Shown here piece by piece: positions 10,837 through 28,924 of a DNA stretch of 64,000 bases. Origin of the DNA: Hypomesus transpacificus (taxonomy: Eukaryota > Chordata > Actinopteri > Osmeriformes > Osmeridae). Each line of letters starts with the position of its first letter. Position 1 is the first letter of the stretch. The translations under genes were made by a program, and so were the position numbers. The notes under the pieces were generated by a model that saw only the letters and a program-made list of their open reading frames with translations, was not told the origin of the DNA and ran no database searches. The DNA lies in assembly GCF_021917145.1 (NCBI RefSeq), contig NC_061078.1, positions 6,983,076-7,047,075 on the forward strand, written 5' to 3'.

Positions 10837-13475
10837 ATGTCTGCCTTCAAGTTCACCCTGCTGACCCTGCTGCTGGTGTCTGCCTGCTGGGCAGAGGAGG
10901 AGGTATACCACCTAGTCTACCTATGTACTGTATCTACAGATCCTGCTGTGTGCTTTGTCACTTATATACTAACATACCATAACTTTTTATTCTTCTAAAT
11001 CTCTCTCCAATCACTGTTACGGCTCTGCAGACAGGTGTGTACAGTTATTTTTGTTCTGTGTAACATGATGAACTACATTTTCCAAAACATGAGTATGTAA
11101 TGTTGCACATTGTAAGGGAGTGTTAAGAGAGCCCTAACTTCAGTTCCTTTGCAGAGAGTGTGGAGGACCAATCAGATGATATGTCTGTGTCTGCCCTGCT
11201 GGAGAGAGCCAATGAGAACATGAGTAAGTCAGTTAGCCCTTCAACATACTAATGCTACAGAAGCTATTAGCAGACCAACTCAACCAGACATTGTAGAAGA
11301 ATATATATAACAAACACCTCCTGTTGGATCACCAAACAAACAAGACTGGAGTAGTACAGATGTTTGAGACACACATTTTGAGGAACATGCTGCACATTTT
11401 GACAACATTAAGAGGGGCTTAAGGAAAAATCTGGCAATGTACCTTAACCGTGTCTTGCTTCTTGATGGTGGTCTCCTCTGCTGTAGCCCCTGACTTGGAT
11501 ATGCCTATCCTGATGGACGGTGACATCGCTGTGGAATCTGAGGCTGAGAGGAACGCTGACCCCTGCACCTCCAGTGGCTGCATGTGGGGAAAGTGGACCG
11601 ACGGAAAGGTCTACATTCCCTACGCCATCTCCAATCAGTACTGTACGTAAATTGCCTAGTCTTGCTATTGCAACTCTAAGCCTAGTACAATGGTTGTTAA
11701 TTTTGCATTGTACAGCTGTTTATAATCCTAGCCCAGTTCCAGCATACAGGCCACAATCTTATGCTAACTGGAGCAAAATCAAAGATACCCTCCCAGTTCA
11801 GAAACAGTCAATGACTATCTGTTCTATTGTCCTCCCCCCTGTCTCCTCCCTGTCCCTTCTCATGTCTCCTTCCTGTGTCATCTCTCTTCCTCCCCCAGCT
11901 TCCAGGGAGAGGTCCATCATTGAGAGAGGTCTGGAGTCCTTCTCCTCCTTCTCCTGTATCCGCTTCAGACCCCGTCGCAGCAATGACAGGGACTACCTCA
12001 ACATCCAGTCTAAAAAAGGGTATAAAAATCTTCTAGGATAGCTGTCTAACATCTAATCAGACCTTAACATAGACATACCTTTTTACTACTGAGAATAAAC
12101 GTAATGTCTCTGGTTCCATTTGATTAAGGACACAAAAGAAAACACTACAATTTGAGCTTTTGGTCTCAAAACCTAAACTATACAATGGTCATGACTCCCT
12201 TTCCATCTGTGCTGCAGCTGCTACTCCTTCGTTGGTCGTCGTGGTAATGCTCAGGAGTTGTCTCTGGCTCGCAGTGGCTGCCTGTACCACGGCACTGTTC
12301 AGCATGAGCTTCTGCACGCCCTGGGCTTCAACCACGAGCAGACCCGCTCTGACAGGGACAACCACATTAAGGTGTTGCTGCAGAACGTCCAGTCTGGTGA
12401 GTGTGCAGTGCAGAAAGGGGGATCGAACCCCTGACGTGCTTGCTTTGACAGTGCTACAGTACCTCACCATTGTAGCCCCAAACCACCTTTGCTACTTTAA
12501 CATTGTGAATTAGAAATATGTACATGCACTGTATATGTACACACAAAGTTGTATCCTACTTATGTATAGATATATATTGTAAAGAGCCATATTGAGCACC
12601 TTTGATAGCCAGCCAGGAGTACTTTGCTGACTAATAAATATAATATCACTGTATACTGAATGTCTCTTCCCTTTATGCTTTCAGGCATGGAGCACAACTT
12701 CAGGAAGATCGCCACCCTGAACCAGGGCACCTCCTATGACTATGGCTCCGTCATGCAGTACCACAGGTCAGTACTGGATCTCTGCCTATGAGACAACCAC
12801 AGGGACTAGTCTAAACCTCAGTCTAAGAGAAACAGACATCACCAGGTAATAATCGCACTTTAGTTCTATAGAAAAAATAACCTTTTCCTCATGGATATGT
12901 CTCCTACAGGACTGCCTTCTCTAAGAACGGCCAGCCCACCATGGTGCCCATCCCCAACAGCAACGTTGCCTTTGGCCAGGCCAAAGAGATGAGCAGGAAT
13001 GACAAGGCCAGGCTCAACACGCTGTACAAGTGCTGTAAGTTCATAAGAGAGTTGTACAACAGTACTGCCACACAGTGTTGGGGTTTGTGGAAAGTCTGAA
13101 CTCCTTGTTATATCAGACAAAAAGGTGCATACAAGGACTGCTCATTTTTGACATCAGCCCCCGTCACTGTAGATGAAACTGGTCGTCTAACTCTGGAATC
13201 TTTAGCACTTCTGCTGACTTTTTCCACTCACGCACTCAGATCAACATATTTTTTTTAATCTGATTAAACTAATTAAACAAAAAAAAATCCATATAATAAA
13301 ATACCAGTGGAACCATTTGGATTAAACTGGAATTATATGTTTAATTATTTACATGTATTTAATTATAATACAGCAAAAGGAAGTTGATTTAAATACGAAA
13401 ATACTTTTATTTAAACTATTTTAGATTTAGCAATGGTAACTGTGTATGCACGTTTGTTGTCTGGTTTCTACAGAA
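10837..13475 (+). CDS. Astacin gene B: six-cysteine astacin (nephrosin-like) metalloprotease
   Basis: A non-coding exon ends at 10728. Coding exons: 10837-10902, a 4-nt micro-exon 11031-11034 (ACAG), 11155-11223, 11487-11642, 11899-12019, 12218-12396, 12685-12766, 12910-13034, and 13474-13475, which supplies only AA of a stop codon split as T|AA. Total 804 nt, 267 aa. The signal peptide is MSAFKFTLLTLLLVSACWA. The propeptide carries SALLERANENM, and the mature start is near RNADPC. Zinc site [19 protein letters not shown], Met-turn SVMQY, six cysteines ending in YKC. The [20 protein letters not shown] block resembles carp nephrosin as I recall it. B is almost identical to D, introns included. 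If the micro-exon is wrong, an acceptor two bases further on (CAGAG before AGTGTG) would also keep frame. Confidence 0.88.
11031..11034 (+). other. Candidate 4-nt micro-exon of gene B
   Basis: ACAG sits between acceptor CTCTGCAG and donor GTGTGTAC. Exon 1 ends in phase 0. If exon 3 is joined at its first, CAG-type acceptor, it needs one extra base in front, otherwise a stop arises within the exon. The 4 nt (1 mod 3) supply that base. The equivalent exon is 31 nt (also 1 mod 3) in genes A and C. Confidence 0.55.
12405..12475 (-). repeat. tRNA-like SINE remnant in intron 6 of gene B
   Basis: On the minus strand the block carries AGGGGTTCGATCCCCC, a good tRNA B-box stem-loop, inside an otherwise degenerate sequence. 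The same remnant is in gene D (about 24209-24279), and a shorter decayed one is in gene E (about 28220-28250). It is not a functional tRNA: no acceptor stem or anticodon arm is seen. Confidence 0.5.
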
Positions 13476-13701
13476 GGAAATCAAATGGGCACAAACATCA
13501 ACACCGTATTGGATGCTTCCCCCTGCAAGGGTATTACCACAATCGTGACTTGCCGAAGCCCAGGAATCTGCCAATAGGCTACACCAAGGGGAAGTCGATC
13601 CTGACCGTGTCTCAAATCATCTCTGTTGCATGTATTCAGTTTCATCTTCCTGGACTGAACTTCTATCCCCCTATGAGTTTGTGTCATGACTTTGATCCAA
13701 C

Positions 13702-26618: not shown

Positions 26619-26769
26619 AGGCTGGCTGCACTGACCTTTCTCACACCTACTTGCAGAAGCGCCAAGGTGAGTCTTTGTGCCAGACAGCGGGTGGAGTGAT
26701 GTATGCAAGTGTTTCTACTGACCACATCCGACCAGTGTTTTTGATGTTCTGCAGGTCCGTTGCAGCAAC

Positions 26770-28924
26770 ATGTTTGTGTTCAGATTCTCCTGGGCTGTCC
26801 TGGTCCTGCTGCTGGTCTCTGTCTGGGCCGAGGAGCTCACCGAGGTAGACCTGCTGGACACTGTTCAGAAGAGACAGAAGTGACACCATTTATAGAACAT
26901 TAATTATGCCATATTAACTTCTTTTTTTTCTTCCCCAACCCTTTTGTGTTGTCCTCTGGAGGAAGGTAAGAAAGTAACTATTTTGGCTTCCTTTGATTGC
27001 ATGTTGAGTGTGAATTGTGACTAATCTCTCTGCTCTTCATAGAGAATGCTGTGGTAGAGGACAAATCAGAGGAAGTGTCTGTGTCCCAGTTGCTGGAGCG
27101 AGCCAATAGGAACAGGAGTAAGTCTGACCACTTACAAAAACAGTTCTTGTTGGCTGCAGTACATTTTGTCTTCTGAAACTCACAACTGTCATTGGCTAGA
27201 CCTGATGTCTCTTGCATCGCTCCCACGCCACCAATCACAGACCCTGAAATTGATGAGCCTTTCCTGATTGGTGGCGACATTGCCGTTAAATCCGAGGCTG
27301 AGAAGAACGCCGACCCCTGCACCTCCCGTGGCTGCCTGTGGAGGAAGTGGACCGATGGAAAGGTCTACGTTCCTTACTACATTGCCAACCAGTACTGTAA
27401 GTACACTTCTAAGGACACTTTGATACAGCTACTGTATCATTGAATGGTTTCGAGAACAAGAAACACCAGCAGATATAAAACCTCAACAAGCTTTTAGCGA
27501 AGATCTGTCCTCCGTCCCAACCTGGTCTCTGCCTCCCTCCTCCTCCATCCCCCTTGTCCATTTTTCTCCTGTCTTCTACTCCTTATCCCTCCTCGCTCCT
27601 TTACATCCTCTCTCCTCCTCCGCCAGCCTCCAGGGAGAGGTCCATCATTGAGAGAGGTCTGGAGTCCTTCTCCTCCGTCTCCTGTATCCGCTTCAGACCT
27701 TACCAGAATGGCGACTCTGAGTACCTCAGCATCGAGTCCCGCGATGGGTGAGTCCCTATCCAATCAGATGCAGCAGCTTACCATGGTAAAATAACATCTT
27801 CCAAATTGTATCATTAAGTGTAAACACTTCAGACAAAACAATGGTCCTGCATTCCAGCTAAGTAGGCTGTCTTATTGAGCAACCTCCCTCACAAGTCCCC
27901 CTATTTCATTAACTCTTCCTCCTCCTCTTTATCCTCTAATGCTCCTCTTCCATTGGCTACTTCTCCTCCTCCTACCATATTTTGTCCACCCCTTTCTCCT
28001 TCCCCTCTCCATCTTACTCCTCTTTCCCGCCAAGGTGCTACTCCTATGTTGGCCGCCAGGGTGGTGCCCAGACTGTGTCTCTGGCTCGCAGCGGCTGCCT
28101 GTACCACGGGACTGTTCAGCACGAGCTTCTGCACGCCCTGGGCTTCAACCACGAGCAGACCCGCTCTGACAGGGACAACCACATTAGGGTGTTGCTGCAG
28201 AACGTCCAGTCTAGTGAGTTTGCAGTGCAGAAAGGGGGGTCGCACCCCCGAGTCTACTGGTAAAAAACGTAATTGATAGTGAGAAAAACACAACATCAAC
28301 CTGTCTGTCATTCACTCCTCACCATCCGACATCTCTTGATTTTAATTTTACACTATGGTCATAAAACGCTCACTCAACAAATCTGATCTTTCTCCTCCTC
28401 ACTTCCCCTCCCGTCTGTATCTATCCATATATTTGTCTACCAGACATGAGGTACAACTTCGACAAGATCGCCACTCTGAACCAGGGAACTCCCTATGACT
28501 ACAACTCTGTGATGCAGTATGAGAGGTAGCACACACCAACATAGAGCCTCGGCTGTGACCCCTGGTTTGCTTCACAGAGAATAATGCATTCTGATGTGGA
28601 AATGTCCTTTCTAGGTATGCCTTCTCTATGAATGGACAGCCCACCATGGTGCCCATCCCCAACAGCAACATCTCCTTCGGCAAGGCCACCCAGATGAGCC
28701 AAAACGACATCACCAGGATAAACAAACTCTACCAGTGCTGTGAGTTCTCGGATCTAGCTTACAGAGTTGTGTTACGACCCTGAGACCAAAGAGGAAGGTT
28801 GAGGGTTTACATACATGACAACTGTTCCATGCAATATAACGTCAAACTCAACAGCTCTATGTTAAGTTGCAAAACATGAGATAGTTTGAATGATTATCTC
28901 TCTTTTTCTCCCCCTCCTTTAGAA
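26770..28924 (+). CDS. Astacin gene E: C6AST nephrosin-like metalloprotease
   Basis: Non-coding exon up to 26666. Coding exons: 26770-26844, micro-exon 26962-26965 (GAAG), 27043-27117, 27241-27396, 27627-27747, 28035-28213, 28444-28525, 28615-28739, and 28923-28924 (AA of the split stop T|AA). Total 819 nt, 272 aa. Signal peptide [20 protein letters not shown], propeptide with [11 protein letters not shown], mature start near KNADPC. Zinc site [19 protein letters not shown] in [20 protein letters not shown], Met-turn SVMQY, six cysteines, end YQC. The signal-peptide exon and promoter are shared with F, not with A-D. The donor of exon 7 (GAGAG before GTAGCA) is weak but the frame and length (82 nt) demand it. 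Confidence 0.88.
26962..26965 (+). other. Candidate 4-nt micro-exon of gene E
   Basis: GAAG lies between TCCTCTGGAG, the first AG after a long pyrimidine tract, and the good donor GTAAGA. Gene F has GAAGAG contiguous at the start of its second coding exon, as if this micro-exon and the next exon had been joined. Confidence 0.6.

Follow-up and report, generated by a model that had tools for sequence, protein, structure and literature searches.

A predicted four-nucleotide coding exon in tandem astacin-type protease genes of Hypomesus transpacificus

We examined a window of 64,000 nt from the 437-Mb genome of Hypomesus transpacificus (contig NC_061078.1, positions 6,983,076 to 7,047,075), which holds six tandem astacin-type protease genes, here called A to F, on the plus strand, flanked by mtch2-like and FADD-like genes. 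Three of them, B, D and E, are each predicted to carry an in-frame coding exon 2 of only four nucleotides, a reading to which we give a probability of about 90%. A sequence-only reading of this DNA had placed such a micro-exon at 11031-11034 (ACAG, gene B), 22848-22851 (ACAG, gene D) and 26962-26965 (GAAG, gene E), and the letters stand there as described, with AG before and GT after each. The exon would be constitutive and would lie between a phase-0 and a phase-1 intron, at the start of the pro-peptide region of a secreted protease of the astacin type. Its four bases and the first two of exon 3 would encode T-E in B and D or E-E in E, and the exon would keep exon 3 in frame with exon 1. It would occupy the place of the longer exon 2 of genes A and C, which, as that reading had also held, is a 31-nt exon with phases (0,1) at 6118-6148 in A and 18106-18136 in C.

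The coding part of exon 1 spans 10837-10902 in B (donor GAG/gtatac, the slash marking the junction), 22654-22719 in D and 26770-26844 in E (donor GAG/gtagac), and it ends in phase 0 in all three genes. Exon 3 (11155-11223, 22956-23024 and 27043-27117) needs phase 1 when spliced at its first CAG/TAG acceptor (ctttgcag in B, ttcatag in E), which confirms the one-base phase shift that the micro-exon had been proposed to supply. Skipping the micro-exon while using this acceptor leads to a stop at codon 45, 45 and 30 in B, D and E, respectively. Because four is not a multiple of three and skipping gives these early stops, the micro-exon would be needed for the reading frame.

Splice sites were then compared by score. 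The two ACAG exons rank first and second (8.6 each) among the 557 AG-N4-GT sites on both strands of the window, and GAAG ranks fourth (5.45), after a site on the minus strand at 32198 (6.2). The fifth and sixth sites, at 5.38 and 5.28, come near to GAAG, so the gene E micro-exon is not clearly apart from the rest; GAAG is the content of 5 of the 557 sites. Within its own intron pair, the micro-exon is first of all AG..GT internal exons up to 400 nt, which number 46, 37 and 27 in B, D and E, and none of the other candidates scores better as exon 2. The frame is restored by three, three and two of these candidates, and pairs up to 60 nt number 26, 24 and 12. When the merged introns were shuffled with dinucleotides preserved, a 4-nt site scored as high as observed in 2, 0 and 4 of 2000 shuffles, and a site of any 1-mod-3 length up to 31 nt did so in 5, 2 and 67 of 2000. 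The 36 other introns of the six genes (8539 nt) offer a best 4-nt site of 2.39 and a best 1-mod-3 site up to 31 nt of 5.41. The donors of the micro-exons are strong (6.0, 6.0 and 6.3), and their acceptors are fair in B and D (2.6 each) and poor in E (-0.8). When exons 1-3 of E were searched for genome-wide in spliced form, with scoring of the best candidates, the three matches were the separate exons 1 and 3 of E and exon 1 of F.

As had been pointed out, B, D and E also stay in frame without a micro-exon if splicing uses the acceptor that lies 2 nt further on (CAGAG/ or TAGAG/); AGTGTGGAG (B, D) or AATGCTGTG (E) would then follow exon 1 immediately, and the protein would be two residues shorter. 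Such splicing would make both the very short exon and the weak GAG acceptor of gene E unnecessary. However, the downstream acceptors are GAG sites that score -2.4, -2.4 and -3.0, against 4.2, 4.3 and 4.5 for the good CAG/TAG two bases before, and they fall under all 47 modelled acceptors (lowest -0.8, -0.8 and -0.7), which comprise 34 CAG, 10 TAG, two AAG and one GAG. The literature passages on acceptors in PMC2951375 state no rule on GAG acceptors, and the rule used here rests on general base frequencies and on these 47. Models without a micro-exon were enumerated with the donor from 30 nt inside exon 1 to 60 nt past it and the acceptor anywhere between -60 and +45 relative to the first acceptor; the frame-keeping models, 25, 26 and 15 in B, D and E, reach best totals of only -2.5, -2.5 and -2.7. 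The usual donor and first acceptor total 3.8, 3.8 and 4.8, to which the micro-exon's own sites add 8.6, 8.6 and 5.5, so that the micro-exon reading is supported and outranks every enumerated model without it. The downstream acceptor would also leave unexplained the strong donors, the rank among the 557 sites, the GAAGAG at the start of F exon 2 and the extra phase-0/phase-1 exon in A, C and a hatching-enzyme-type locus elsewhere in the genome (L017, see below). We therefore consider direct joining unlikely.

In gene E, exon 2 might instead be 70 nt long (26896-26965), with the same donor as GAAG and the acceptor tttatag. This exon is open, is 1 mod 3 and needs no GAG acceptor, and it totals 4.2 vs 5.5 for GAAG. 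Its extra 66 nt, however, are pyrimidine tract, the corresponding exon in F begins at GAAG, and a comparable 95-nt exon in B and D (total 7.9) breaks the frame, which makes the longer exon similarly improbable. For gene-finders, the pyrimidine tract before GAAG, lying within an open 70-nt frame from tatag to gtaag at 26896-26965, forms a trap. A further possibility is that the AG/GT closing the four bases acts as a recursive splice site of zero length from which the mRNA gains nothing. The motifs do end in AG/GTGTGT or AG/GTAAG, and MPC1 splicing is reportedly kept down to a 0-bp exon (PMC9929638), but a site that adds no base leaves the first exon-3 acceptor out of frame, with the early stops given above; we regard this as extremely unlikely. 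Decay is frequent among tandem copies, and B, D and E could be non-functional, with the region unconstrained. This is very unlikely in view of their full open frames with the zinc motif and of the few differences, 8 in 802 sites, between exons 1-8 of B and D.

Several points weigh against the 4-nt exon and should be set beside these results. The scoring used general vertebrate base frequencies and not MaxEntScan. In B, D and E the donor that follows exon 1 is weak (-0.4, -0.4 and 0.3), and the acceptor of the gene E micro-exon is itself a GAG site (-0.8); as it is the sole GAG among the 47 acceptors, the argument from GAG sites cuts both ways in E, where the 70-nt exon does without such a site. 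Moreover, B and D are a recent duplicate pair and hence one observation, not two.

Gene F offers a comparison for the exon of gene E. It has seven introns between its coding exons, the phase-1 intron 2 being missing. Its intron 1, which follows exon 1 (coding part 30435-30509), begins like E intron 1, and the last 80 nt of this intron find their best match in E intron 1 (z 4.07; reached in 0 of 300 dinucleotide shuffles) among 23 introns, namely all of B and E and seven of A, with A4, C, D and the other F introns left aside; B intron 5 comes next (z 2.52), and E intron 2 has z -0.88. F exon 2 (30623-30695) starts with GAAGAG, as E would with GAAG joined to AG, and can be read as the fusion of GAAG with exon 3. 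Over its first 20 bases it agrees with E spliced in this way at 14 positions and with B at 10, and E aligned to F scores 218.5 when spliced with the micro-exon and 202.5 without it. We read these data as indicating that F lost the intron downstream of the micro-exon, intron 2, and that the four bases now start an ordinary exon. Two observations tell the other way: F exon 2 has a weak AAG acceptor (-0.8), even if the AGs that follow it at +4 and +6 are far weaker (-8.2 and -15.1), and MAFFT on unspliced DNA places the GAAGAG of F in E intron 2 columns and not under the GAAG of E.

Whether the micro-exons of B and E share an origin was judged from alignment. An unguided alignment of four genes puts ACAG and GAAG in common columns. 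These lie within the 14-column stretch CTCTGnAGnnAGGT, where E and B agree at 11 positions (100 of 196 over all aligned intron columns) and which ranks first for conservation among 232 intron windows of this gene pair. The match is not unique when the alignment is not used as a guide: of 44,215 14-mer pairs, 17 reach 11 or more identities, this one among them. For the end of B intron 1, the closer likeness is to B intron 6 (z 4.32), with E intron 1 behind it (z 3.43), and F intron 1 has no likeness to B intron 1 (z 0.02), so that the case for homology of this stretch between B and E is mainly positional. Overall, the micro-exons of B and E are likely homologous, as suggested by their position and phase and only partly by their sequence.

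Recognition of the micro-exon in B, D and E would probably resemble that of the 4-nt exon of human MPC1, relying on a strong donor and on a branch point set well before a long tract free of AG, an arrangement that would leave room for the spliceosome. The MPC1 exon is constitutively included, and 67 nt upstream and 6 nt downstream of it suffice for this; its main branch points lie at -68 and -64 (-63 in the discussion of that paper), compared with a usual median of 28 nt, and the distance was proposed to relieve crowding (PMC9929638). In our window, the motif TAYTAAC was sought from 110 to 15 nt before the acceptor in 47 introns and is present in three, precisely the ones that precede the micro-exons of B, D and E. 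The candidate distal branch motif is TACTAAC at 10967-10973 in B (64-58 nt before the micro-exon, branch A at -59), TACTAAC at 22784-22790 in D (also starting at -64, with its branch A at -59) and TATTAAC at 26912-26918 in E (50-44 nt before the micro-exon, branch A at -45). The AG-free stretch before the micro-exon measures 89, 89 and 64 nt in B, D and E, which is long though not the longest of the 47. Use of a distal branch point is made less certain by the fact that the motif was noticed after looking, and that the 7-nt exon of L017 has no distal TAYTAAC, showing instead, by eye, a CTAAC with its A at -26.

We also considered exon 2 in related genes elsewhere in the genome. Nineteen loci were fetched, and the 5' exons were inspected in four of them (L017, L019, L025 and L026), with L009-L016, L018, L020-L024 and L027 left aside; summed tblastn scores are strongest for L026, L025, L019 and L017, followed by L014, L020 and L015. 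L017, a hatching-enzyme-type locus on C6, has a predicted 7-nt exon 2, AAAAAAG, at 4616-4622 of the locus (7928615-7928621 of C6), between ctctctag and gtgagtg, in the same place and with the same phases as the 4-nt exons, and its exons 1-3 are in frame. L025 (C373, 774000-783999, minus strand) holds two astacin-type genes, the second of which has, by eye, an exon 2 of 43 nt. Exon 3 of this second gene has an in-frame TAA at its end, and the gene may be a pseudogene; the first has an apparent GC donor after exon 4 (by eye). Exons 1 and 2 appear fused in L025 gene 1 and in L019, again by eye. L026 is a pair of intronless genes of the hatching-enzyme type on C22, with no difference over the 209 residues compared. 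The pair fits a euteleost, as clade I hatching enzyme genes are reported to be intronless in most euteleosts (PMC2939575). At L027 (C19, 2865517-2866017, minus strand), an intronless astacin-like stretch with three stops and 39% identity to B residues 74-255 is probably a decayed retrocopy.

In each gene inspected, a free-standing exon 2 is 1 mod 3 in length (43, 31, 7 or 4 nt). A tree of 12 rows, rooted at the midpoint and including one row of only 118 residues, groups L017 with L019 and the intronless genes (85/94), B, D, E and F (100/100), and A with C (99/97), and it sets A/C beside B/D/E/F at 82/88, not a strong node. The earlier suggestion that the exon shrank to 4 nt gains some support from this tree and from the 7-nt and 43-nt exons of other astacins, although the change may have run either from 31 to 4 nt or by growth in A/C. 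More broadly, exon 2 of the six-cysteine astacins might be an exon in the course of disappearing, of 43, 31, 7 or 4 nt, fused to exon 1 or 3, or lost with all introns, although we hold this idea tentatively and think it somewhat less probable than its negation. Loss of intron 2 is reported as common among the clade I hatching enzyme genes of clupeiform and gonorynchiform fishes, with two exceptions (PMC2939575).

The models of all six genes are open throughout and give proteins of 284, 267, 284, 267, 272 and 270 residues for A to F. Genes A to E have nine coding exons with intron phases 0,1,1,1,2,1,2,1, the micro-exon being counted in B, D and E, and the stop codon is completed by exon 9 in B, D, E and F. 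Exons 4-8 lie at 11487-11642, 11899-12019, 12218-12396, 12685-12766 and 12910-13034 in B, where the stop codon is completed at 13474-13475, and within 23291-24840 in D and 27241-28739 in E. A GT..AG stretch 5' of the ATG, at 10729-10836 in B and at matching places in D, E and F, looks by eye like a 5' untranslated region intron.

Pfam Astacin (PF01400) matches gene B at 2.9e-58 and gene E at 1.5e-58, the zinc motif HExxHxxGFxHExxRxDR is found in B, D, E and F, and the mature gene B enzyme has six cysteines from ADPC on (counted by eye). The Met-turn is SVMQY in B, D, E and F (exon 12685-12766 in B), which does not agree with the family consensus SxMHY, and A and C keep SVMHY. B, D, E and F are here called astacin-type genes that group with A/C in the tree and whose Met-turn departs from the C6 astacin (nephrosin/pactacin) consensus. 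Against the PDB, the top match of gene B is High choriolytic enzyme 1 (3vtg, 2.3e-60), which we take to be a medaka enzyme, followed by 3lqb (LOC792177 protein), presumably a zebrafish hatching enzyme. Viral contigs yielded no confirmed relatives. The ancestral teleost hatching enzyme gene had 9 exons and 8 introns (PMC2939575). The teleost hatching enzyme and C6 astacin genes described so far (PMC2939575, PMC8812170, PMC12186722) resemble those of the window in having nine coding exons, as A to E do, in an exon 9 that supplies two bases of the stop codon, as in B, D, E and F, and in the loss of intron 2 in some lineages, as in F; they differ in that a 4-nt exon goes unmentioned in the parts of these papers considered here, the supplementary alignment and the exon-length figures aside.

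The array arose in part by block duplication. The region 5088-25500 of the window records the joint duplication of A and B to give C and D, with a repeat spacing of about 10.7-12 kb. Intron 1 of B and D is identical at 126 of 128 positions, and introns 1-7 are near-identical except for a 16-nt gap in intron 2. Intron 4 measures 1464 nt in gene A (6553-8016) and 171 nt in its duplicate C; about 1.3 kb would have been inserted into gene A after the duplication, or lost from C. Of the flanking genes, mtch2 lies at about 1-3650 on the minus strand and was recognised by eye only, a 93-residue piece of it giving no Pfam match, and the FADD-like gene has a DED domain at 32802-33095 (3.7e-21) and a death-domain exon near 33559-33839 (by eye only). 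Nephrosin/pactacin genes in Neoteleostei are neighboured by mtch2, plekho2, fadd and ano1 (PMC8812170); our synteny comparison covers mtch2 and fadd. Further along the window, two related short-period repeat arrays (43043-43240 and 45539-45718; copy spacing 8-12 nt) lie 2.4 kb apart.

Very short exons are known from other systems. Exon 2 of MPC1 (Koh et al. 2023, PMC9929638) is closest, being 4 nt long, not a multiple of three, required for the frame and followed by a strong donor, and the branch points quoted above for it compare with candidate motifs whose A lies at -59 and -45 here; it differs in belonging to an unrelated gene and in that its inclusion was seen by reverse transcription PCR (RT-PCR), whereas the exon of B, D and E is predicted only. 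The 4-nt exon of TNNI1, the 5-nt exons of KSR1 and TMEM237 and the 7-nt exon of MUSK are likewise very short coding exons that are not multiples of three, but they lie in unrelated genes for which tissue-specific expression is described (PMC9929638). In plants, the 1-nt exon of some APC11 copies has its counterpart in intronless copies as a base within a large exon, a situation comparable to that of E and F, although the 1-nt exons of APC11 and VPS55 are from plants and have RNA sequencing (RNA-seq) and RT-PCR support (PMC8831610). Among the retrieved papers that mention both micro-exons and astacins, titles and abstract openings name no micro-exon in these astacin genes, and the word 'microexon' is absent from the hatching enzyme and nephrosin papers retrieved; supplementary alignments could hold a 4- or 7-nt exon 2. 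Tiny exons being known elsewhere, that of B, D and E would be an unusual example, perhaps an exon caught shrinking.

The MPC1 paper lists exons of 4 or 5 nt for eight human genes, and several of these exons belong to untranslated regions or minor transcripts (PMC9929638); the rarity of 4-nt coding exons makes the case of B, D and E noteworthy. When fish astacins are annotated, an aligner that imposes a minimum exon length would misplace the acceptor or lose the frame at such an exon, and fish gene models already published on the basis of GT-AG inspection or GeneWise may lack it. The tandem array, with exon 2 in predicted 31-nt, 4-nt and fused states, provides a natural series for the limit of exon shrinkage, the distal branch point and intron loss as a fate of such exons. 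If exon 2 of these astacins is indeed disappearing, the loss of intron 2 would pass through a micro-exon stage, represented by B, D and E, with F as its end point.

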